A stretch of DNA of 56,067 nucleotides from Candidatus Brocadia sp. (GCA_011525665.1 WYAU01000054.1:1-56067); one strand, 5' to 3'. Shown: positions 9,523 through 21,752, counted from the first letter of the stretch. Translations and numbers: made by a program. Notes: generated from the sequence alone by a model not told the origin.

Positions 9523-12144
9523 ATGAAAACCACGAAATGGTTAGCCAAAGAATTTATCATGCCTGATGCTATTTCGTCTATCCGCCAAGCCGTTGAAAAG
9601 GCGGGTGGAAATGAGGTATTTCTGGTGGGCAGGCTGAATGACGAGCACCTGGTAAGCGATGTGGACGTTTACGCCATGGGAAACAGACGTGCTGTACCTG
9701 CTATCATCAAAGAGGCAAAATACGGAGACGTTATTATCCACAATCACCCGGATGGCGTCCTGGATCCCTCCGATGCAGACCTTGAGATTGCATCATATAT
9801 GGGTTCGCTTGGCGTAGGATGCTACATTGTGGACAACAACGCAGAATATCTATACCCGGTGGTAAAGGTCAAGAAAGAGCGGGTGTGTGAGCGGCTCAAC
9901 TTCACAGAATTATCAGCACAATTTCAACCCGGAGGAAATTTTGCACGGCATTTGCCCGAGTATGAATACCGCACGCAGCAGGTCGAGATGCTAAAGTCGG
10001 TAGTTGATGCCTTTAATGAAGACACGCTTGCCGCGATTGAGGCGGGGACGGGGACGGGGAAATCACTGGCGTATCTCGTCCCGGCCGTTTTCTGGAGTAT
10101 AAAAAATCAGGAACGCGTAGTAGTTTCCACCCACACGATAAACCTCCAGGAACAATTGATCGAAAAGGACATTCCGATACTCAGGAAATGCTGTGGACTG
10201 AACTTCAAGTGCGTCCTGGTAAAGGGCAGGAATAACTACCTGTGCCTGAGGAAGGTTTATAATTTACGTTCTGATGGCGGCACGTTGATTGAGGACAAGG
10301 ATCGACAGCAACTGAACGATCTGCTAGAGTGGGCAACAAAAACGCGGGATGGAAGCAAGGCCGACCTGAATTTTGTTCCGCAGGATGATGTCTGGGAATC
10401 AATCCAGTCGGAGGCCGACCAGTGCACGCGACTGAAGTGTCAGTTTTATGACGAGTGCTTTTTTTATATTGCCCGGAGAAATGCAGCCAGCGCCGATGTA
10501 TTGGTGGTAAACCATCATCTCCTGATGGCCGACCTGATCGTGCGGAAAGAAACAAAAGGTTACGATGCCGTAGCCATTTTACCGCCCTTCAAGAAAATCA
10601 TTATTGACGAGGCACACCACCTTGAGGATGTGGCAACGGCAAATATGAGTTGCACGATTTCTAAATTACGGATAATAAAACTACTAGGGAGATTGGTCAA
10701 CCTCAAGGATGGCAGAAAAGGACTTTTGCAATACCTCAAAAACAAGCTCAAAGAAGTAATTTCGATTCACGACAAATCCATTACCATAGAAATTGCCGAC
10801 ACGATCAATACGGAAATCCTGGAGGCAAGGCAGCGTCTCTATGATACTGTTCAAGGAGTTTTTGAGGACATCTCCAGTGTAGTAAGCGAGTACATTAAGA
10901 ACAAAAACTTTCACGGAGAAGATTCAAAAGAAGGTGAGACTAAATTACGCATCACAGCAGACTTGATTTCTTCAAACCTGTGGCAAGATGTTATTGAGAC
11001 CAGACTCAGGGCATTAAGCATGGATATCCACAAATTTGTCTCTGTATTAACAGCACTGTTAGATAAGTTCGGGGAACTCTCCAAAAAGTCACAGGATATT
11101 CTTTCGCCGGTGCTGATAGATATTGTATCCTGCAAGACACGTTTAAAATTGGTGGCGAGCGATCTTGCTTCGTTTATCATAGACAACGAAAAGGTTTGCA
11201 AATGGATGGAAATAAAAAGATATGCTGGAGGATCCGTCATTCGATTTTGTACAGCCCCGCTGTCCATTTCTGATAATTTGAAGGCATGCCTGTATGACAA
11301 TTATACTACGATAATATTGACATCGGCCACACTAACAATAAGCAAAACCTTTAAATTCTTTAAAGGCAACATTGGCCTGCATCAAATTCCGGAAGACCGC
11401 TTGTCCGAATTACTCTTAGATTCTCCATTTGATTATAAAAAACAATCCATTATATGCATTCCTACGGACATTTCGGAACCTGACAAACCGGGTTTCGTTA
11501 CAACCCTTGAAGAGAATATCCTGAAGACCGTAGAAATTTCAGAGGGCCGCGCATTAATCCTGTTTACATCATATAGCCTTCTTGATAATCTCTACCGGAG
11601 GTTAGAACCGCAGATTACACGACTCGGTTATACCTGCCTGAAGCAGGGGATGGATAACCGCCACAACCTCCTTGAAACCTTTAAGGCAGATAAGACGTCG
11701 GTTCTCTTTGCTACGGACAGTTTCTGGGAGGGTATTGATGTCAAGGGGGATGCGTTGGCGTGTGTTATTCTTACCCGATTACCATTTAAGGTGCCTACAC
11801 AACCTGTTATTGAGGCACGGGCTGAGGCCATTGAAAAGGCAGGAGGCGACGCCTTTTACGATTATTCTCTCCCCATGGCTGTAATCAAATTTAAACAGGG
11901 CTTCGGAAGGCTCATACGAAGTCGCGAGGACAGGGGGGCGGTAATTATCTTCGACCGCCGTGTGGCTACAAAAAAATATGGACATATATTTCTCCGGTCG
12001 CTGCCGGATGCAAGGTGCATTATGGATAAGAGGGACGTCGTTTTTCGAGAGATGGATCTGTTTTTGGGCAAGGGTAATACTCATTCACATCAGGGAATGA
12101 AAGCACCGAACTCCATACATCAAATATCAAATAAATCCGAATAA
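9523..12144 (+). CDS. DinG-type Fe-S DNA helicase with RadC/JAMM-like N-terminal domain
   Basis: 873 aa. Residues about 15-130 carry HNHPDGVLDPSDAD, the spacing of the RadC/JAMM metalloprotease motif (H73, H75, S83, D86). From about 150 it is an XPD/DinG superfamily-2 helicase: Walker A EAGTGTGKS (about 173-181), the Cys set of a 4Fe-4S domain (NYLCLRK and DQCTRLKCQFYDEC), DEAH (about 359), FATDSFWEGID and the motif VI segment QGFGRLIRS. DinG helicases unwind R-loops and other branched DNA. A common fusion partner of DinG is a DnaQ-like exonuclease rather than a JAMM domain. Fusion to a RadC-like fold suggests a DNA-repair role. The start at 9523 was chosen from the promoter position; ATG 9559 is an alternative. 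Confidence 0.88.
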   Translation: MKTTKWLAKEFIMPDAISSIRQAVEKAGGNEVFLVGRLNDEHLVSDVDVYAMGNRRAVPAIIKEAKYGDVIIHNHPDGVLDPSDADLEIASYMGSLGVGCYIVDNNAEYLYPVVKVKKERVCERLNFTELSAQFQPGGNFARHLPEYEYRTQQVEMLKSVVDAFNEDTLAAIEAGTGTGKSLAYLVPAVFWSIKNQERVVVSTHTINLQEQLIEKDIPILRKCCGLNFKCVLVKGRNNYLCLRKVYNLRSDGGTLIEDKDRQQLNDLLEWATKTRDGSKADLNFVPQDDVWESIQSEADQCTRLKCQFYDECFFYIARRNAASADVLVVNHHLLMADLIVRKETKGYDAVAILPPFKKIIIDEAHHLEDVATANMSCTISKLRIIKLLGRLVNLKDGRKGLLQYLKNKLKEVISIHDKSITIEIADTINTEILEARQRLYDTVQGVFEDISSVVSEYIKNKNFHGEDSKEGETKLRITADLISSNLWQDVIETRLRALSMDIHKFVSVLTALLDKFGELSKKSQDILSPVLIDIVSCKTRLKLVASDLASFIIDNEKVCKWMEIKRYAGGSVIRFCTAPLSISDNLKACLYDNYTTIILTSATLTISKTFKFFKGNIGLHQIPEDRLSELLLDSPFDYKKQSIICIPTDISEPDKPGFVTTLEENILKTVEISEGRALILFTSYSLLDNLYRRLEPQITRLGYTCLKQGMDNRHNLLETFKADKTSVLFATDSFWEGIDVKGDALACVILTRLPFKVPTQPVIEARAEAIEKAGGDAFYDYSLPMAVIKFKQGFGRLIRSREDRGAVIIFDRRVATKKYGHIFLRSLPDARCIMDKRDVVFREMDLFLGKGNTHSHQGMKAPNSIHQISNKSE

Positions 12145-13191: not shown

Positions 13192-14199
13192 ATGACTCAT
13201 CCGAACAATTCAGGTTTTGACTATCTCCTGCAACTCAGTTGTGGTTACTGGAAATCCCATGCCCTCTTTACGGCTGCAGAATTTGATATATTTACGCTTA
13301 TCGGTGAAGGCAATCTCACTGCAAAAGAAATTTCACAATCAATCCATACCAACGAACGGGCAACTGAAATGCTCCTCAATGCCCTCGTTTCCCTTGAATT
13401 ACTTATCAAGGAAGAGGGCCATTACAAAAATTCTCACTTGTCAAATCTCCACCTGATTAAAGGAAAGCCGCATTATCTCGGAGATTTCATCCACCATTTC
13501 CATAATATGATGGACAATTGGGCAATGCTTCGGGAAACCATCGAAACGGGAAAGCCCCTTTCATTAAAGGACTTGCCGGAAGAGGTCGACCAACACGACC
13601 TCAGGGATTTTATTACGGCAATGCATAATATAGCCTCCGTAAAGGCTGAGGAACTTTGCAGGAAAATAGATTTAAAAAGTTCAAAAACGCTGCTGGATAT
13701 TGCGGGTGGTCCTGGCACGTATTCCATCGCACTTGCAAAGGCCAATCCGCACCTGCATGCCGTTGTCTTTGACCTGGGGCATGTAATTAAACTCACCCGG
13801 GAATTTATTAAAGCTGCAGATATGGGAGGCCGTGTTACCACACAGGCGGGCAATTGCCTGGAAGATACCTTTGGGGAAAATAGGTACGATGCGATCCTTG
13901 CCTCAAACCTTTTACATATTTATAATCCCGCAAACAACACCATGATCCTCAGGAAGTGTTGGGATGCCTTAAAAGACGGCGGTCAGGTTATCATCCATGA
14001 ATTTGTGCTGGACGAAACCAGGACACGTCCACAATTTGCCGCCCTCTTCAGTCTCAACATGCTCATTGGAACACAGGAAGGGGCATCCTACACTGAATCT
14101 GAATATCGGACGTGGCTGGTAAATGCCCGTTTCAAGGATATAAAGAGGATAGACTTAGAATCCAATTCGACCCTGATTATTGGAGAAAAAATGATATGA
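13192..14199 (+). CDS. SAM-dependent O-methyltransferase (plant-OMT-like, family 2)
   Basis: 335 aa. The N-terminal half (about 1-105) resembles the winged-helix dimerisation domain of caffeate/hydroxyneurosporene-type O-methyltransferases (KSHALFTAAEFDIFTLI and an LTAKEIS helix). The C-terminal half is the class I SAM fold, with motif I DIAGGPGTYSIALA (about 168-181), VVFDLGHV and ASNLLHIY. BchU, CrtF and TcmN-like enzymes belong here. The acceptor cannot be deduced. The stop codon lies only 14 bp before the left arm of the integrated element's attachment site, so the element entered just downstream of this gene without breaking it. Confidence 0.88.
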   Translation: MTHPNNSGFDYLLQLSCGYWKSHALFTAAEFDIFTLIGEGNLTAKEISQSIHTNERATEMLLNALVSLELLIKEEGHYKNSHLSNLHLIKGKPHYLGDFIHHFHNMMDNWAMLRETIETGKPLSLKDLPEEVDQHDLRDFITAMHNIASVKAEELCRKIDLKSSKTLLDIAGGPGTYSIALAKANPHLHAVVFDLGHVIKLTREFIKAADMGGRVTTQAGNCLEDTFGENRYDAILASNLLHIYNPANNTMILRKCWDALKDGGQVIIHEFVLDETRTRPQFAALFSLNMLIGTQEGASYTESEYRTWLVNARFKDIKRIDLESNSTLIIGEKMI

Positions 14200-14213: not shown

Positions 14214-14231
14214 GCTGGTTCAATCTGCAAG
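14214..14231 (+). other. Left attachment site of the integrated element (arm plus core)
   Basis: GCTGGTTCAAT (14214-14224) is followed by CTGCAAG (14225-14231). The same 7-bp CTGCAAG recurs at 20868-20874, followed there by ATTGAACCAGC, the exact reverse complement of the left 11-bp arm. Joining the chromosomal halves restores a perfect inverted repeat around the 7-bp core, the layout of a tyrosine-recombinase core site. Confidence 0.7.
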
Positions 14232-14715
14232 GGTGAAATATTAAAAATTCTTAAGTCCTTGATATTGGGCTGGTTTCCTGTTTTGCTTTGAAAATTAAGG
14301 AATCGTTAGTATCGTGTTTATTCTAATAGGTTCAACCAATTTTATCTATTTCGATTATTTTTAGCACGAAATTAGCACAAATACTAACCTTATTAAAATA
14401 CTAAAGATATTTCCTCAAGTCGTGTTTGTTATTTGAGAAATTGACAAAATTGAGAAATTAAACTTATGACCTCTTGAACCCCATTCTTAAAAAGGCATTT
14501 TTATACTTTTTAATAATTTCGTGGTGTTATGTTATTGCGATTGCACTTGTTTATGCTGGTATATATCCGAAAGCCCATTTAATCATAAAACATACCATTT
14601 ACCAAAATTCATGTTTATGCCTTTTGCAATGACTTCATAATCGATGTTTAGCGTTAGCTGCGAGCGTTATTCTCTCAATATGTATCCACAATCACAATTC
14701 CCAGCATTACCAATC
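14232..14715. other. Left non-coding end of the element
   Basis: About 480 bp, AT-rich, with no gene seen. It contains the paired TTAGCAC boxes at 14361-14378, which match boxes near the right end in sequence and 11-bp spacing and may be arm-type integrase sites. Confidence 0.5.
14361..14378 (+). promoter_or_regulatory. Paired TTAGCAC boxes, left copy
   Basis: TTAGCAC occurs at 14361-14367 and 14372-14378, start-to-start 11 bp, about one helical turn. The same pair recurs at 20764-20781 with 16 of 18 positions identical and in the same orientation. Candidate arm-type binding sites for the integrase or excisionase. Confidence 0.5.
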
Positions 14716-15726
14716 CTACATGACTGAAATATTATTGCATTCTTCAGTTATCCAACGAATAATGGCATTTTCCATATATTTTAGATGTGAAGGTATCTCG
14801 ATTTCTTTTGTTTTCGGATTAAATTCGATATTCCAACCGCTCCAGTTATCATCATTAGAACACAGAGTCATTGTTGTAATGTTTTTGCCAAATTCTATGT
14901 GCGCCAAAATTGTTTTACCCTCAACAACTCCTTTTATATTGCATTTCTTTTTGCCTTTCTTACGTGATATTGTTTTAATACTTCCTTCCCAAAGAGGTTT
15001 TCGATGGTAACCATTAATTTGGGTTTTTATCCAGTTTAGGATTTGTTCCTCATTATCTGGAATACGGGAATAAATATTACAAGTATTGTTATATGATGCC
15101 CAACTGCAGTTTATTAAGTCATACCCATATCTATTTCCTTTGTAATAAATACTAATCCAAAAGTCACGTTCCGTATCATCGTAATCGTCGAAGAATATTT
15201 CTATTTTTTCTCCATTTAATAAAGAATTCTTTTTATAAGTCATTATTGGGAAATCAATATTACGGCTAGCAAAAAATTCAATCCCGTATTTATAAATTTT
15301 CAAACCGTCTGGTATATTATCTTTCTCGCGAAATACCCTAATAATATGTTTACATAACCTGCGGGGATCGTCTTCTGAATAATCTGCACGATTTTCCTTG
15401 AAATCATTACATGTACATATAATGTTACCGGAATCGATTTCATAAAAAACATCTATGTTGTAAGGGTCTTGAATTTTTACAATTTCACTTTTCTGCGTTC
15501 CGTTCTTTTTAAATAACTTTTGTTTCGCTGTTTCTACGTCAATTAGTGTAATAGTATTCGTTTTTGGGTCGTAATCCTCTATTCCTATCATCGGAAAACG
15601 ATATCCACAATCACATTGTAGCGCATTATCTGGATTAAGCAGCGCACATTTAGGACATTTTATTGGAGGGTTTTTTCTTGTTTCTGGCACTTGGTCTTCC
15701 CCTTTAAACCAATCAAATATTCCCAT
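14716..15726 (-). CDS. Zinc-ribbon plus SWIM zinc-finger protein, function unknown
   Basis: 336 aa. An N-terminal zinc-ribbon (CPKCALLNPDNALQCDCGY, about residues 24-42) is followed by a SWIM-type motif C-x-C-x(n)-C-x-H (ICTCNDFKEN and RLCKHIIRV, about 108-135). SWIM fingers occur in DNA-binding or ATPase-associated proteins. The remaining 200 residues are charged with aromatic beta-like segments and are not recognised. The ATG has TAGGAG at good spacing. AT-rich codon use matches the element, not the flanking host genes. It is probably cargo and could belong to a defence or interference function, but no partner ATPase is adjacent. Confidence 0.72.
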   Translation of the reverse strand: MGIFDWFKGEDQVPETRKNPPIKCPKCALLNPDNALQCDCGYRFPMIGIEDYDPKTNTITLIDVETAKQKLFKKNGTQKSEIVKIQDPYNIDVFYEIDSGNIICTCNDFKENRADYSEDDPRRLCKHIIRVFREKDNIPDGLKIYKYGIEFFASRNIDFPIMTYKKNSLLNGEKIEIFFDDYDDTERDFWISIYYKGNRYGYDLINCSWASYNNTCNIYSRIPDNEEQILNWIKTQINGYHRKPLWEGSIKTISRKKGKKKCNIKGVVEGKTILAHIEFGKNITTMTLCSNDDNWSGWNIEFNPKTKEIEIPSHLKYMENAIIRWITEECNNISVM

Positions 15727-15778
15727 TTTGTATATCTCCTAAGGATTGCAAGATAATTAAGAAATTGTAACTAAGGTC

Positions 15779-16144
15779 TCATAATTCAACCTTACTGATA
15801 AGACGGCGTCGGGGTTTTATCCATTTAGATCCGCATTTATTACAAACGTAAATGTTTTCCTCATGTCTATAAACCATAGGAATCGGGGGGAATTTACATG
15901 GGCAAAGAGGCTGTCCTAGTTCTTTGGCTGTTTTAGCAGTTTTTAGTTTTGATCGTTCTCTAAGCAAATACGCTATCAATCCAAGACATATTGCTAGGAA
16001 CGCCATGAACAACACAGACAATACTGGTTTGGATGATAATCTTGCAAATATTTTTGGGGAATAATAACACACTGGTGAGAATACTAGCGCAACTATAACC
16101 TGAGCGAAGTTATTTATTATGGCAGTCTTTAATTGGTTTAGCAT
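15779..16144 (-). CDS. Small membrane protein with C-terminal Cys-pair motif
   Basis: 121 aa, not recognised. There are two hydrophobic segments (about 14-30 and 40-62), then a Lys-rich linker and a cytoplasmic-looking tail with CPC near residue 82 and CNKCG near residue 102, a possible zinc ribbon. It lies 52 bp upstream of the SWIM-protein gene on the same strand, so the two may be co-transcribed. The ribosome binding site is weak. Cargo of the integrated element. Confidence 0.6.
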   Translation of the reverse strand: MLNQLKTAIINNFAQVIVALVFSPVCYYSPKIFARLSSKPVLSVLFMAFLAICLGLIAYLLRERSKLKTAKTAKELGQPLCPCKFPPIPMVYRHEENIYVCNKCGSKWIKPRRRLISKVEL

Positions 16145-16200
16145 GAGCGTATATTTCCATATATTTTTGAGAATTTACAATTCTGCTTTTTTTAAGCAAT

Positions 16201-16410
16201 TACGTTTTTTGAGTTATCAGATAAGCATATTCTAGGGCAAGTTGCGTCTTGCCAATGCCTCCAAGCCCATGGACTGCCTGACCGGGTAGGAAGTCCCACG
16301 CCTGATAACAGTCAAGTATCCTGCATTTTCAATATCCAGGCAATCCATTTAGCCCACGTTTTGTCAGTCCCGGCATAGTTAATAAAAAAACTTTCATTGT
16401 GGATTATTGA
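16201..16410 (-). pseudogene. Decayed TIR / NB-ARC-type remnant
   Basis: Reading the minus strand from 16410, one frame gives FFINYAGTDKTWAKWIAWIL, the start of the short bacterial TIR domain found in TIR-NB-ARC-TPR proteins. A second frame adds an AGYLTVI-like stretch and a third gives QAWDFLPG, the expected continuation. The same frame then jumps straight into a P-loop, VHGLGGIGKTQLALEYAY, typical of NB-ARC/STAND ATPases, and stops after LITQKT. So there are at least two frameshifts, a large internal deletion between TIR and NTPase, and loss of everything downstream. Such proteins are NAD-consuming or signalling STAND immune sensors, so the element once carried, or landed on, a defence-type gene. 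Confidence 0.7.
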
Positions 16411-16580
16411 GAAACGATTATTTTTTTAAGAGACATGGTAGAAGATTGAAATCGCAAAAGATTTTAGTATAAATCGCTACTCCCGACAATATAGAGTATT
16501 TAAAAATCAATTTCAATATTAATTACCTAATGAACAGTACAAGCACAGTGATTTTTAAATGAGTATAGCAATGCATCAAT

Positions 16581-16637
16581 CAAACACAGCATTCTTTAAT
16601 CTTCTGTTTTGTAGAAGTTTAAAGGATGCTGTGTTTG
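16581..16637. repeat. Long hairpin 1
   Basis: A 19-bp arm (16581-16599) pairs with 16619-16637 with a single G-U-type mismatch, and an inner CTTCT/AGAAG pair (16601-16605 with 16613-16617) extends the stem. It could be a structured RNA, a protein-binding palindrome or an element-internal cis site. Confidence 0.6.
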
Positions 16638-16675
16638 GAAGGGTACTAAAGTCAGCCGAAGCAATAAGCGTTAAA

Positions 16676-16720
16676 CCTTCGCTCTAAGCGGAACGTTTTT
16701 TGTGGAGCTTAGAGGGAAGG
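16676..16720. repeat. Hairpin 2
   Basis: CCTTCGCTCTAAGC (16676-16689) pairs with 16707-16720 with one mismatch around a 17-nt loop. It lies about 40 bp after hairpin 1. Confidence 0.5.
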
Positions 16721-16776
16721 GAATGAATTGGGTAAATTAGGGTATTTTTTAACGGATAATTTTTTTACTAAAAAGC

Positions 16777-16805
16777 TTGACAAACTATTTTATTGTATAT
16801 ACAAT
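16777..16805 (+). promoter_or_regulatory. Promoter with palindromic operator for the RHH-protein gene
   Basis: TTGACA (16777-16782), 17-bp spacer, TACAAT (16800-16805). A perfect 14-bp palindrome ATTGTATATACAAT (16792-16805) covers the -10 box. The first gene downstream encodes a ribbon-helix-helix-like protein, so autorepression is likely. Confidence 0.6.
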
Positions 16806-16883
16806 TGTCATCATATTACCAATTATGCTTTAATATACAAGGCTATTATAAATAATTAATATATATACATACGTATTTGAAAT

Positions 16884-17504
16884 ATGGCTAAAAAAGAAGA
16901 TATAATAATAATGCGAATTGGAAAAGAATTTAAAACCTTTTTACAAAACAAGGCGAAAGAAAAAGGCGTATCCTTATCTAAACTAATAGAAGAAAGACTT
17001 CATGATACTTTTAAACAAGACAAAGAACTTATATTAGATTTAATTGATAAAAGAAAACAGGAAAGACCTGTCTACTGGAAAGAATTAGAAAAATCACCCA
17101 TAATAAGAGAATTTGAAAATTATATTGCGTCTCTTTTTACTGAATTTGTAAATCCACTGTCGAAAGACCCCAATTATCAGCCTTTGATAATTTTAAATTG
17201 GATCGAACATATATTAAGTTTAACTATTAAGCATTTTGATTCAATTTCAGAAGAACACAAAAAGGGGGCCGCTGATAGTTTCATAAGTATAGGGGAAAAA
17301 CTTATCGATGGGCTTACATCTATCCAAGCTACAGATAAAGAAACCCAAGAATACATACTAAAGAGGAAAAAGGAATTCGTTGAAAAGGCAATATACTATT
17401 ATACTGCTTTAGCATTTGCAAAAGAATCGTACCATAAAATAAAGAGAGAACTAGAAAAGGTTAATGATGAATTAATCAAGGAATTAAAAGAAAATAGTGA
17501 ATAA
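16884..17504 (+). CDS. Ribbon-helix-helix-like DNA-binding protein with helical C-terminal domain
   Basis: 206 aa. Residues about 1-45 (IIIMRIGKEFKTFLQNKAKE, then GVSLSKLIEERL) have the beta-helix-helix pattern of Arc/MetJ-type repressors. The remaining 160 residues are helical and charged with no known motif and may be a dimerisation or effector domain. The upstream palindrome over the -10 box is a plausible operator. The ribosome binding site is weak. The gene starts a plus-strand set with the 58-aa zinc-ribbon ORF. It could be a copy-number or immunity repressor of the element, or an antitoxin-like protein; no toxin gene is evident. Confidence 0.65.
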   Translation: MAKKEDIIIMRIGKEFKTFLQNKAKEKGVSLSKLIEERLHDTFKQDKELILDLIDKRKQERPVYWKELEKSPIIREFENYIASLFTEFVNPLSKDPNYQPLIILNWIEHILSLTIKHFDSISEEHKKGAADSFISIGEKLIDGLTSIQATDKETQEYILKRKKEFVEKAIYYYTALAFAKESYHKIKRELEKVNDELIKELKENSE

Positions 17505-17563
17505 GGGGAAATATAGAGAAAATCGTATTTTAATATTTATAATTTTTTTGGAGGTAACTAAAG

Positions 17564-17740
17564 ATGAAAACACAACATCGTCTTCTTTCAAATGGAAGAT
17601 GTCCGGTATGTGGAAAAAAGCTTATGATTGTTAAAACAGGAAGTAAAATTTGGAAATCTTCACTTATGATAGAGGATGAAAGAAAAAAGATTCGATATTT
17701 AAAATGCCCTCAATGTGCTGAAACAATAGTTTGTTCATAA
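17564..17740 (+). CDS. 58-aa double CxxC (zinc-ribbon-like) protein
   Basis: It starts at ATG 17564 behind GGAGGT and ends at 17740. Two CxxC knuckles, CPVCGKK (about 13-19) and CPQC (about 48-51), would form one zinc ribbon. The layout resembles Com-like or small phage zinc-finger proteins. A terminator follows about 50 bp downstream, so it is probably the last gene of the RHH-protein transcript. Function unknown. Confidence 0.65.
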   Translation: MKTQHRLLSNGRCPVCGKKLMIVKTGSKIWKSSLMIEDERKKIRYLKCPQCAETIVCS

Positions 17741-17788
17741 AAAGTAAATCACCTTTAGAACGGTAAAGAAGTCTCTCGAAGACAAAGA

Positions 17789-17836
17789 AGCCGAGATTAT
17801 GGTTGATACATTCAACCGTAGTCTCGGCTTTTTTAT
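17789..17836 (+). terminator. Rho-independent terminator
   Basis: GCCGAGA (17790-17796) pairs with TCTCGGC (17822-17828), with an inner GGTTGA/TCAACC pair, and a T-run follows. It ends the RHH-protein/zinc-ribbon transcript. Confidence 0.8.
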
Positions 17837-17877
17837 TTGCTCCAAATACTCTTTATGTTTCTTGGTAATTTAAAAAG

Positions 17878-18006
17878 TTTCTCTATCCTTGCCCCCAGTT
17901 GCCTTGCGCCCTTTCCTTATGGCATGAGCCCGAAGGATAGCATCATGCCATAATATGTGGGCGCAAGAGGAACCTGCAATTGGGTGAGCGGGCAAGGGTA
18001 GAGAAA
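17878..18006. repeat. 129-nt near-perfect hairpin upstream of the Rep region; candidate replication origin
   Basis: The outer arms TTTCTCTATCCTTGCCC and GGGCAAGGGTAGAGAAA pair with one G-U. They are continued inward by CAGTTGC/GCAATTG, TTGCGCCC/GGGCGCAA and an 11-bp TTATGGCATGA/TCATGCCATAA stem, closing on a short loop near 17926-17952. There is no T-run, so it is not a simple terminator. Its position just before the Cys-rich ORF and the Rep gene fits a rolling-circle double- or single-strand origin or a packaging hairpin. A structured RNA is the alternative. Confidence 0.6.
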
Positions 18007-18024
18007 TATCGGAAAGGGTGAAAT

Positions 18025-18225
18025 ATGTCAAATAATCATTGTGAATATTGTTACCACTGGCAAGGTGATGGTTACTGTATCAGTGAAATAACCCCTTATC
18101 AACCCTGCATATGGTTTGTTGATGGTGAAGAGGTATATAAATATCTAAATCCTGGCGGGCTAGCGGTGAGGACAGAAGGACGAACAAGTGACGCCCGCCC
18201 CGACGATGGTTCATCATGTTTATAA
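18025..18225 (+). CDS. Small Cys-rich protein, function unknown
   Basis: 66 aa. AAAGGGTG precedes the ATG. The N-terminus CEYCYHWQGDGYC (residues about 6-18) plus a later Cys forms a compact metal- or disulfide-binding motif. The C-terminal third overlaps a GC-rich hairpin (18154-18199), so that part may be constrained at the DNA level. A similar C-x2-C-x2-aromatic-Gln pattern occurs in the 84-aa ORF at 19157. It lies upstream of Rep on the same strand. Confidence 0.5.
   Translation: MSNNHCEYCYHWQGDGYCISEITPYQPCIWFVDGEEVYKYLNPGGLAVRTEGRTSDARPDDGSSCL
18154..18199. repeat. GC-rich hairpin inside the small Cys-rich ORF
   Basis: GGCGGGC (18154-18160) pairs with GCCCGCC (18193-18199). It is one of three structures between 17878 and 18261 leading up to Rep. 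Confidence 0.4.
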
Positions 18226-18229
18226 AATC

Positions 18230-18261
18230 GTTTGCTGGTATATGGGTAATCACCAGCAAAC
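18230..18261. repeat. Hairpin immediately before the Rep gene
   Basis: GTTTGCTGGT (18230-18239) and ACCAGCAAAC (18252-18261) form a perfect 10-bp stem with a 12-nt loop, 34 nt before the Rep start. It could be a nick-site hairpin, a Rep-binding site or a translational control element. Confidence 0.5.
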
Positions 18262-18294
18262 TCGTTACTTTTGATTAAGGTTAAGGTAGATGTT

Positions 18295-19131
18295 ATGGGA
18301 ATCGATAAGTTATCTCTTACAACTCATGAAATGGTGAAAGCTGACTACTTAAGGGAGTTTTGGAGTGTTAAAGAGGATACCCATAGATTAAAGCTTTATA
18401 AATACTTTTGTGAGATGGATTACGCCCAGGTGATGTGGAGACCTCATAAATTTAGTGACGAAACAAATATGAGAATACCCTATTCCAAGATAGATATTAA
18501 CCCAAAGCATTTTGACTGTTTTCAGTTTCTCTATGATTATGTGGAAAACATTTTTAATGGTCAACCAGATTTAGAGTATCTCAATGTCAGTAGAATCGAT
18601 TTAACGGCAGATATAGAAAATCTTCCCATGGATGTGGTGTTTTCACGTCTGCACGTTCCCGGTTTTCATCGTGATAGTTTGAGCCTTTATAAAGGCACGA
18701 TCTATATAGGTTCTAATCCAAAGATAAGAATTTATGATAAGACAAAAGAGATTAAACAAAGACAAAGAAAAGGATGGAGTATTACGGAATGGGAGAAAAG
18801 TATTGTTGAATCTGGAAAACAGATAACAAGATTTGAGATTCAGTTAAGCAATTTTAAAGGTTGTTTAAAAGATGTGGTAAATGACCCAGCGTCCTTAGTA
18901 TCACACTTTGACCGGATACGATTCTATGATTTTGAAGATAAAGAAAAGATAGGCTCTATGGTAGGCGGTTTATATTTTTTAATGACAAAGATCAATAGAA
19001 AGCTCAGGGGTAATCTTGATAAATTCAGGTCTCAGGAATTAGAGACGATGATTAAAGAAAAATATATTGCTTCAGCCAAAGAATGGTTTCAGGGAAAAGA
19101 GTCCCTTAACTTAGAAGGAATCCCATTTTAA
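18295..19131 (+). CDS. Rolling-circle-type replication initiation protein (Rep_trans / phage CRI-like)
   Basis: 278 aa. The sequence shows the signature order of the replication initiation factor/gene II-X group: MGIDKLSLTT at the start, VSRIDLTADI in the middle (about 103-112), TIYIGSNPKIRIYDKTKEIK (about 141-160), then ITRFEIQLS. This matches Rep_trans or filamentous-phage CRI proteins that nick the plus strand through a Tyr; I could not single out the nicking Tyr. ATG 18295 was chosen because AAGG lies 8 nt upstream; a TTG at 18271 is less likely. Flanked by large hairpins upstream and by xis/int downstream, it is probably the element's own replication initiator. Confidence 0.72.
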   Translation: MGIDKLSLTTHEMVKADYLREFWSVKEDTHRLKLYKYFCEMDYAQVMWRPHKFSDETNMRIPYSKIDINPKHFDCFQFLYDYVENIFNGQPDLEYLNVSRIDLTADIENLPMDVVFSRLHVPGFHRDSLSLYKGTIYIGSNPKIRIYDKTKEIKQRQRKGWSITEWEKSIVESGKQITRFEIQLSNFKGCLKDVVNDPASLVSHFDRIRFYDFEDKEKIGSMVGGLYFLMTKINRKLRGNLDKFRSQELETMIKEKYIASAKEWFQGKESLNLEGIPF

Positions 19132-19156
19132 CCAAAAAGAAAGGAGAAGAAAGGCT

Positions 19157-19411
19157 ATGAATAGGATTGAAAGAAGAAAGAAGTATAAAAAAGAAAGAAG
19201 GCGTAAAAGGCTTTTAAAACGTGAAGAAATGAGAGGATATAAAGAAATTAATACTTATAGAGTTATTGAATTGAGGATATATTATTCTGAAAATACAGGT
19301 CTCAAACCTTTAGCGGTGGCAACCTGTGAGGATTGTGAGGATTATCAATCAGGTGATTGTAAAGGTGGTAGCGTGCCTGAAGAGTGTGTAAAAGGGTCTG
19401 GATTGTTATAA
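19157..19411 (+). CDS. Small basic, Cys-containing protein
   Basis: 84 aa. The first 30 residues are almost entirely Arg/Lys/Glu. The C-terminus carries CEDCEDYQSGDC and another Cys near residue 77. It is not recognised. It lies 25 bp after Rep, with AAAGGAG upstream, and 9 bp before the Xis-like gene, so it is likely co-transcribed. A nucleic-acid-binding role is plausible from the charge. Confidence 0.5.
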   Translation: MNRIERRKKYKKERRRKRLLKREEMRGYKEINTYRVIELRIYYSENTGLKPLAVATCEDCEDYQSGDCKGGSVPEECVKGSGLL

Positions 19412-19420
19412 AGGGTAACT

Positions 19421-19744
19421 ATGAAACTGGTAACGATAAAAGAGGTATCAGAATTTCTTAAGGTGAAAGAGTCAACCCTGTATTCCTGGGCTAGCAGTGG
19501 TTTAATACCGTCATACAAGGCAAACGGTCTTATACGATTTGATATAGAAGAAATACAGGACTGGATCAAGAAATCAAGAACCCTGCCTACGATAGCACGA
19601 CGGACGATAAAGAAGGTAACAACAAGGGTTCATGATTTAAACAGTCTGGTTAAAAAGGCTATTGATGACGTTACAGGGAAACGTTATAATCCATCCAACG
19701 GGAAACCAGGCCCGGGTCAAGGTCTCGGAAAGGAGGTCGTATAA
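19421..19744 (+). CDS. Excisionase-like helix-turn-helix protein (MerR/HTH_17 type)
   Basis: 107 aa. Residues 1-50 (TIKEVSEFLKVKESTLYSWA, then GLIPSYKANGLIRFDIEEIQ) are a textbook HTH_17/excisionase domain. The C-terminal half is basic and Gly/Pro-rich. The stop at 19744 is 1 nt before the integrase ATG (19746), and the integrase ribosome binding site lies inside this gene, so they are translationally linked. It probably acts as the directionality factor for excision and perhaps binds near the TTAGCAC boxes. Confidence 0.8.
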   Translation: MKLVTIKEVSEFLKVKESTLYSWASSGLIPSYKANGLIRFDIEEIQDWIKKSRTLPTIARRTIKKVTTRVHDLNSLVKKAIDDVTGKRYNPSNGKPGPGQGLGKEVV

Positions 19745-19745
19745 C

Positions 19746-20816
19746 ATGGGACTTTACAAAAGAGGTCTGGTCTGGTGGATGCGGTTTACTTACCATGGCC
19801 AACAGGTAAGAAAATCGACAGAGACAACAGATAAGAAGCTGGCAGAAAAGATTTACCATAAGGTTGTACATCAGATAGCGGAGGGCAAATGGTTTAATAT
19901 TGACGAGGGAAACCAAAGAACCTTTGAAGAGCTTGCGGAAAAATATGAAACGCAAGAATTCAAAGACCTCAGAGGCTACCAGAAAAACAGGTGTTATTTA
20001 AACCAGCTCAGGGCATTCTTTGGTAACTATAAACTCAGTGAAATAACCCCGGCATTGATTGATGATTTTAAACAAATGAGAAAAGGGCACGGGGTAAAAT
20101 CAATAACCATTAACAAACAGCTCTCCATTTTCAGAAGGATGTTTAACCTTGCCAAAAAGCGTTGGATGTGGATAAAAGAAATCCCTCTTATCGAGATGGA
20201 ACCGAATGCGGATAATAAGCGAACAAGGCATTTAAGCTATGATGAGTTTCATAAGCTCTTGGGGTTTTGCGATGCATGGTTAAGGGATATTGTCATTGTG
20301 GCTGCATGGACAGGGCTGAGGCGTGAAAATGTTGTTAAATTGAGGAAGGCTCAGATAAATCTTTTGACACGGGAAATAGCAGTTGATGGCAAGGAAATCA
20401 AGAACGGTGAAAATCTGAGAATCCCCATTGCTAGCACTGCATATGAGGTAATAGCAAGCCACGCAATCAATGACAAGGTGAACAGCCTTTATGTTTTTTG
20501 TGACGATGAAGGTAAGTCGTACAATCCAAAAAAGGTGTATAACGTATTTAAAAAGACCTTAGCACGTGCAGGAATAGAGGATTTCAGATTTCATGATTTA
20601 AGGCATTGCTTCGCGTCATGGAACAGGCAAGCAGGGGTTGACATATATACACTTGCTGAGTTAATGGGGCATAAAGACACAAAGATGACGATGCGTTATG
20701 CTCATATTACGCCTGTACATCTCACAAAGGCTATCGGGTTGTTGGAAAAGAGCTACGGTGAATTTAGCACAAATTTAGCACGGGAAAGCATAGATGTCGC
20801 GCAACAAACCGCATAA
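19746..20816 (+). CDS. Tyrosine recombinase / phage-type integrase
   Basis: 356 aa. ATG 19746 has AAGGAGG at ideal spacing. It has a short N-terminal arm-binding-type segment (MGLYKRGLVWWMRF), a SAM-like core-binding domain (about 60-150) and the catalytic domain. The catalytic domain has the Arg in TGLRREN (about 191), HDLRHCFASW (HxxR, about 283-286), LMGHKDT and the nucleophile Tyr in MTMRYAH (about 318), so all key residues are present. The last codons overlap paired TTAGCAC boxes, and the predicted crossover core lies 52 bp after the stop. It should catalyse integration into and excision from the 29-bp palindromic target. Confidence 0.93.
   Translation: MGLYKRGLVWWMRFTYHGQQVRKSTETTDKKLAEKIYHKVVHQIAEGKWFNIDEGNQRTFEELAEKYETQEFKDLRGYQKNRCYLNQLRAFFGNYKLSEITPALIDDFKQMRKGHGVKSITINKQLSIFRRMFNLAKKRWMWIKEIPLIEMEPNADNKRTRHLSYDEFHKLLGFCDAWLRDIVIVAAWTGLRRENVVKLRKAQINLLTREIAVDGKEIKNGENLRIPIASTAYEVIASHAINDKVNSLYVFCDDEGKSYNPKKVYNVFKKTLARAGIEDFRFHDLRHCFASWNRQAGVDIYTLAELMGHKDTKMTMRYAHITPVHLTKAIGLLEKSYGEFSTNLARESIDVAQQTA
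20764..20781 (+). promoter_or_regulatory. Paired TTAGCAC boxes, right copy (inside the end of int)
   Basis: TTAGCAC at 20764-20770 and 20775-20781, 11 bp apart start to start, match the left pair at 14361-14378. They lie about 90-100 bp from the crossover core, typical of arm-type integrase sites. Confidence 0.5.
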
Positions 20817-20867
20817 CTTATTGCTTTGCTAGAAGTTATTGAGGTAATAAAAAATAGTGGTTACAGA

Positions 20868-20885
20868 CTGCAAGATTGAACCAGC
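20868..20885 (+). other. Right attachment site of the integrated element (core plus arm)
   Basis: CTGCAAG (20868-20874) is followed by ATTGAACCAGC (20875-20885), the reverse complement of the left chromosomal arm at 14214-14224. Confidence 0.7.
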
Positions 20886-20957: not shown

Positions 20958-21752
20958 ATGTTTGTCTTAAAAAAGATTATCGCCCAATTCTTTTCTCCTG
21001 TTCCTTTATGCCTGGAAATATTGGTTATCGGGTTATTTCTCCTCCTGTTTACCCAAAAGCAAAGGATCGGAAAGCTTATCGTTACGGTTGGGGTAATGTT
21101 ATTTGCAATCCTGAGCTACAGGGGTATTCCAAACATGCTTTTAAGACCATTAGAGCGTCAATATCTACCACTCGGCGTAACTGCGACATCTGATACAACA
21201 GGCAATGACAGTATACGTTTACCTTCTGTGAAGTGGATTGTTGTTTTGAGCGGGGGACACACCTCTGACCCAAACATCCCGGTTACCAGCCAGATATCGG
21301 ATGCGTCGTTAGTTCGTCTGATAGAAGGTGTAAGGCTCCACAATGAAATACCGGGAAGTAAACTTATTTTATCAGGGGGAAAGGTTTTCGATGCGGTTGC
21401 CGAGTCTGAAACCATGGAGAGGGTTGCCAGGGCTATCGGTGTAAAGCAGGAAGATATTATCTTAGAGTCCCGTTCAAAAGATACATCCGACCAGGCACAA
21501 CTCATTAAACCGATCGTTGGAGATGATGAATTTATTCTGGTTACTTCAGCCGTGCATATGCCGCGCGCAATGGCACTGTTTAAAAAATTGGGCATACACC
21601 CTATTCCCGCCCCCACAGGTCACTCGGTCAAAGAAAGTCAAGGCAGCAATCCTTTCCATTTTTTCCCGGACGCGGGCGGATTCTCTAAAATTGAGAGTGC
21701 TTTGCATGAATATTTAGGATTCGTTTGGGTAAAGCTGAGGGGGCAGATATAA
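20958..21752 (+). CDS. YdcF/ElyC-family membrane protein (DUF218)
   Basis: 264 aa. Two N-terminal membrane segments (about 17-32 and 38-55) precede a DUF218 domain, recognised from IVVLSGGHTSDP, RLIEGVRLHNE, KLILSGGK, SKDTSDQAQLIKP and FILVTSAVHMPRAMALFKK. ElyC, SanA and YdcF belong here; ElyC influences peptidoglycan and lipid-carrier metabolism at the cell envelope. TTTGGAG precedes the ATG. It is the first chromosomal gene to the right of the integrated element, which lies 73 bp upstream. The insertion may have separated it from its original promoter region. Confidence 0.88.
   Translation: MFVLKKIIAQFFSPVPLCLEILVIGLFLLLFTQKQRIGKLIVTVGVMLFAILSYRGIPNMLLRPLERQYLPLGVTATSDTTGNDSIRLPSVKWIVVLSGGHTSDPNIPVTSQISDASLVRLIEGVRLHNEIPGSKLILSGGKVFDAVAESETMERVARAIGVKQEDIILESRSKDTSDQAQLIKPIVGDDEFILVTSAVHMPRAMALFKKLGIHPIPAPTGHSVKESQGSNPFHFFPDAGGFSKIESALHEYLGFVWVKLRGQI

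Follow-up and report, generated by a model that had tools for sequence, protein, structure and literature searches.

The window, a stretch of 56,067 nucleotides from a Candidatus Brocadia sp., carries an O-methyltransferase gene followed downstream by a gene that we take to be YdcF-like, a name carried over from the original prediction made for this DNA. Between the two lies an inserted unit with genes for an excisionase-like HTH protein (xis) and a tyrosine recombinase (int), bounded on both sides by the core CTGCAAG and a chromosomal arm (Table 1).

Table 1 Features of the inserted element and of its host locus, in window coordinates.
Feature	Position	Strand	Basis or remark
O-methyltransferase gene (host), left neighbour	13192..14199	+	PF00891
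attL	14214..14231		chromosomal arm GCTGGTTCAAT (14214-14224) and core CTGCAAG (14225-14231); left half of split repeat
Inserted element	14232..20867		6,636 bp between the cores; methyltransferase-ydcF gap in relatives 0-37 bp
Left-end recombination region	14232..14390		74-85% identity among the clade's elements
Candidate arm-type integrase site, left, TTTAGCACgAAATTAGCAC	14360..14378		17/19 match to 20763-20781
Cargo ORF, 336 aa	14716..15726	-	family searches: no family above cut-off
Cargo ORF, 121 aa	15779..16144	-	family searches: no family assigned
Hairpin with 25-bp arms, non-coding	16581..16637		region common to other elements
Interior module	16880..19068		DNA 80% identical to tRNA-Ala-integrated element in G022
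Arc/ribbon-helix-helix-like protein, 206 aa	16884..17504	+	phrog_582 1.7e-4
Probable Rep_trans-type rolling-circle initiator, 286 aa	18271..19131	+	Foldseek RepDE 4cwc, 9.7e-7
Excisionase-like HTH protein (xis)	19421..19744	+	PF12728 4.1e-13; TIGR01764; phrog_66
Tyrosine recombinase (integrase, int), 356 aa	19746..20816	+	PF00589 4e-29; phrog_1 4.6e-65
Candidate arm-type integrase site, right, TTTAGCACaAATTTAGCAC	20763..20781		inside 3' end of int
attR	20868..20885		core CTGCAAG (20868-20874) and chromosomal arm ATTGAACCAGC (20875-20885); right half of split repeat
YdcF-like gene (host), right neighbour	20958..21752	+	adjoins methyltransferase gene directly in six relatives

Rejoining the flanks with a single core yields GCTGGTTCAATCTGCAAGATTGAACCAGC, a perfect 29-bp palindrome. 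The arms are complementary at 11/11 positions—when pairs of 11-mers are drawn at random from the window, at least 9/11 is reached with a frequency of 1.5e-4 and 11/11 in 0/200,000 draws. All coordinates and letters that the original prediction had given for arms and cores proved exact on re-reading, as did the reverse complementarity of the arms and the duplication of CTGCAAG. The int stop lies close to the right core, as it had stated (ending at 20816, 51 bp before the core), and a tRNA search of the window found none, in line with its claim that no tRNA is involved. Because the core CTGCAAG is close to symmetrical as well, the 29-mer amounts to a hairpin of 13-bp arms with a GCA loop (GCTGGTTCAATCT-GCA-AGATTGAACCAGC) and the core at its center. 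Inverted arms flanking a 7-bp core are the usual make-up of tyrosine-integrase core sites. The geometry which the original prediction had recognized is present, but it is normal for this class of enzymes, and the anticodon stem-loop is its equivalent in tRNA-sited sisters.

The catalytic R-K-H-R-H/W-Y set of the integrase is intact, with R192, K219, H283, R286, H309, and Y318 invariant in the alignment. The xis gene encodes a fusion, whose residues 1-86 match the sister xis, whereas residues 78-107 correspond to the C-terminal end of another sister ORF of ~170 aa; by this internal deletion, a ~500-aa ORF and most of the ~170-aa ORF are missing from the window's element. Repeats of the TTTAGCAC type form a pair, one located ~135 bp inward of the left end and the other ~105 bp short of the right core; 5/6 other elements have the same pairing. 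Arm-type sites would be expected at such places. The left att core region also resembles an internal stretch (18008-18033, ATCGGAAAGGGTGAAATATGTCAAAT), with 81% identity.

The interior of the element is shared more widely. The hairpin at 16581-16637 sits in a ~180-bp non-coding stretch, which is 71-88% conserved in elements of both target types—tRNA genes and repeats—and might possibly be a replication origin. The 286-aa ORF had no family match in Pfam, NCBIfam, and PDB sequence searches; its best structural match (RepDE), obtained with a low-confidence query model (mean pLDDT 58.7), suggests that it is probably a Rep_trans rolling-circle initiator. Homologs of the 206-aa protein at 63-65% occur in tRNA-type elements and in the related element L094. 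The interior module, finally, has its counterpart in the tRNA-Ala element of G022, whose integrase is merely 35% identical to that of the window, and the ends, the N-terminus of xis, and int belong to a repeat-targeting clade. Judged by these similarities, the window's element is a chimera by module exchange, which would have arisen by joining a tRNA-type interior to a repeat-targeting recombination module. PADLOC finds no defence system in the window's element; its one hit is weak (1.5e-4) and links the 206-aa protein with a 2TM effector model. The cargo of the sisters L100, L098, and L095 is defence-like or toxin-antitoxin-like and includes a PDC-S21/DUF4917 protein (1.3e-108), an Eco57I-type methyltransferase, and a zeta-toxin-like ATPase. 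Related integrases were not found in viral contigs, so nothing marks the element as a prophage.

At the host locus of six relatives, the gap between the methyltransferase and YdcF-like genes measures 0-37 bp and holds neither an insert nor a palindrome; the gap of the window minus its element is 115 bp. The empty 29-mer that the original prediction had expected between these genes in relatives was not found. A missing palindrome in element-free relatives, which it had regarded as speaking against it, is indeed what the locus presents—the reason being that the repeat itself is new here. The repeat arrived first and the element afterwards, and since the relatives miss the whole repeat at this place, they show no empty 29-mer that would be orthologous in the strict sense. 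No pair with and without the exact window insertion was found among the relatives.

For six related elements, whose integrases are 66-85% identical to that of the window, both ends could be determined. All seven elements have a 7-bp core and an int-to-core distance that is constant within a base or so; their inner ends are conserved and their outer arms vary. The core is exactly duplicated in 6/7 elements. L096 marks the exception: its cores are unequal (CAATAAG vs CTGCAAG, at 2990-2996 and 10731-10737), which suggests core-mismatch tolerance or a later mutation. Four of the seven, including the window's, sit in a family of GGTTC hairpins, and three, which form a sister clade, in a GCC-CTGAAAG-GGC repeat. 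This 16-mer is a second dispersed repeat, present in 20/59 genomes. The perfect inversion of its arms extends for only 3 bp past the core, with 6/11 positions matching overall; a long palindrome is thus not strictly required.

Two elements, L094 and L099, have targets that also occur uninterrupted. The flanks of L094 outside the core consist of a dispersed two-hairpin unit and unique DNA, and are uninterrupted in another genome; its target is spanned on the left by L149 (1-158, 86%, including ~45 bp beyond the unit) and on the right by L153 (124-373, 98%). The ~90-bp target of L099 is whole in the window's own genome as well as in G006 and G009, whereas in G004 it is interrupted precisely at the core. 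The hairpin reconstituted for L095 occurs at many loci at 97-100% (query matched in 29/32 family genomes), but no locus with the unique flanks of L095 joined together was found. Right ends of more copies lie at contig edges of the window's own genome (L103 and L104). With seven elements of the same anatomy and uninterrupted copies of the target, the intergenic palindrome-targeting integrase of the original prediction holds up, and the reading as a palindrome-targeting tyrosine recombinase is supported at the level of sequence comparison. An integrase 78% identical and of the same target type occurs in another family of the order (L038, G056:C14), pointing to horizontal transfer.

The palindrome is a target, as had been predicted, but as one copy of a dispersed repeat and not as a single locus-specific palindrome. 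Its abundance within and around the genus Candidatus Brocadia (anammox) was assessed by pattern searches in the genomes of 59 relatives, with the reversed pattern as control. The exact uninterrupted 29-mer has at least nine copies in relatives (control: 0 matches in 59 genomes), and none in the window's own genome. Allowing up to three mismatches, it occurs in 40/59 relatives with 0-38 copies per genome (control: 0), and the degenerate pattern GGTTCN{3,6}TGCAAN{3,6}GAACC matches 43/59 genomes, with a control total of one match. Stem letters covary by complementary changes (AATC/GATT, AAGT/ACTT, and AGGC/GCCT). Many hairpins form half of an inverted two-hairpin unit of ~105-117 bp with a conserved linker; some are solo perfect 29-mers. 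The flanks are mostly GCT/AGC or GCG/CGC, and 85/103 sampled copies lie outside any ORF of at least 100 aa. These repeats are REP/REPIN-like—dispersed, mostly extragenic palindromes, often in inverted doublets. The label stays at "like", since the link to a Y1 transposase is a single locus of 30 (L174 in G016, with repeat doublets on both sides of the gene) and the classical tags (GTAG/GGAG or CGTC) were not seen beside the inspected copies. In G001, Ca. Brocadia pituitae, 36 bp separate a repeat of the second class from a Y1 gene. Hairpin-rich loci of G007 and G001 have c-di-GMP-I riboswitches in their vicinity (L140 2849-2987 and L153 431-569).

Among more distant homologs of the integrase (26-44% identical), int mostly has a tRNA gene as its neighbor. 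Where both ends of such elements were found, the direct repeats span 46-65 bp; they start at the 3' end of the tRNA and reach into its anticodon arm. No tRNA was found beside the repeat-clade integrases, and the attB of the window's element does not lie in a tRNA gene. In a tree of 38 integrases, the eight repeat-targeting rows are monophyletic (100/100). This agrees with a switch on a single branch, away from the anticodon arms of tRNAs and towards repeats, the direction of which is likely rather than proven, as the tree is midpoint-rooted and 6/38 rows have no assigned target. The shared geometry—stem arms inverted around a 7-bp loop or core—might have let the lineage move from one target to the other.

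Taken as a whole, the unit in the window is very probably an integrative element that carries a tyrosine recombination module of the lambda type, and whose integrase belongs to a clade using a dispersed hairpin repeat as attB. Integrase monomers would bind the two inverted hairpin arms as duplex DNA, and strand exchange would run across the 7-bp core as ordinary duplex recombination. Excision would be aided by the excisionase-like protein, with GTGGTTACAGA-CTGCAAG-GGTGAAATATT as the expected circle junction and the site restored to the 29-mer.

A bolder version, in which the clade took a fast-changing repeat family as attB and reads the folded hairpin more than its letters, appears unlikely. 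If it were true, it would account for the acceptance of GGTTCAATC-, GGTTCAAG-, GGTTCAGG-, and GCC-type arms by one clade, and would allow a transposon-like spread to many sites. Slightly less likely still is that the integrase recognizes a folded single strand (a cruciform), as integron integrases do on attC. Folding is possible for every target, and in the first target class the sequence covaries with its symmetry kept; however, any duplex core site is expected to be symmetrical, the targets of the CTGAAAG class are short-stemmed, and the elements retain ordinary duplicated 7-bp cores together with candidate arm-type repeats of the lambda kind. To the same small degree, the palindromes might be intrinsic terminators or other RNA hairpins, which the integrase merely prefers. 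This would fit the covarying stems and the position of most copies between genes, but the hairpins are not followed by a T-run, match no Rfam family, and recur as two-hairpin units with a conserved linker, and their transcription would leave the recombination reading unchanged.

It is quite improbable that the solo 29-mers are scars of past excisions instead of mobile repeats themselves. Precise excision would restore such perfect sites, yet it re-forms an existing site and makes no new one; moreover, the palindromes far outnumber the elements, and many are half of a linker-bearing two-hairpin unit. That the element brought the inverted arms along as its termini, in the form of half-palindrome terminal repeats, instead of meeting a pre-existing chromosomal target would agree with the palindrome-free gap of the six relatives, but can hardly be upheld against element-free uninterrupted 29-mers, outer arms that differ per element beside conserved inner ends, and the uninterrupted L094 flanks.

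Integrative elements usually have to balance the safety of a site, with one tRNA site per genome, against the number of sites. A dispersed extragenic repeat offers many sites, mostly between genes. The sister tRNA state persists in the same host family, with module exchange in the window's element; together with the single-branch pattern, this makes the change of integrase target directly testable. Insertion into repeats by transposases is known already (PMC1525189). The repeat-targeting integrase clade is a larger pattern that goes beyond the original prediction. Among the titles and abstracts listed by a full-text literature search, outside of which most subscription journals fall, none described such a clade, which is weak evidence of absence.

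Integrases often switch targets (PMC4383910). For tRNA islands, the same source, citing Williams 2002, places the class A crossover of Islander in the anticodon arm, class A being anticodon-loop genomic islands. The Brocadia integrase belongs to the same superfamily, its more distant sisters mostly sit at tRNA genes, and inverted stem arms flank a loop-sized core in both. By contrast, the target in Brocadia is an extragenic hairpin present in many copies, the element brings no gene fragment that would restore it, and the direct repeat is 7 bp, down from 46-65 bp. REP, REPIN, and BIME sequences are short extragenic palindromes, commonly inverted doublets with a linker (PMC3116915, PMC3733652). 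The Brocadia repeats share all of these traits, and one doublet pair flanks a Y1 gene, but their hairpins lack the GTAG/GGAG or CGTC tag and the transposase link is one locus.

Insertion sequences such as IS621, IS1397, ISPa11, and ISPpu9 target REP (PMC1525189) and, like the Brocadia elements, land in dispersed extragenic palindromes. They belong, however, to the IS3, IS110, IS4, IS5, and IS256 families (PMC1525189). The Brocadia element is larger and bears a tyrosine integrase, an excisionase-like protein, and att sites. Tn916 and CTnDOT have relaxed tyrosine-integrase targets and insert at several places. Brocadia elements also insert at several places, and the unequal cores of L096 are reminiscent of these systems; in contrast to them, the Brocadia targets form a defined repeat family, with exact core duplication in all elements but L096.
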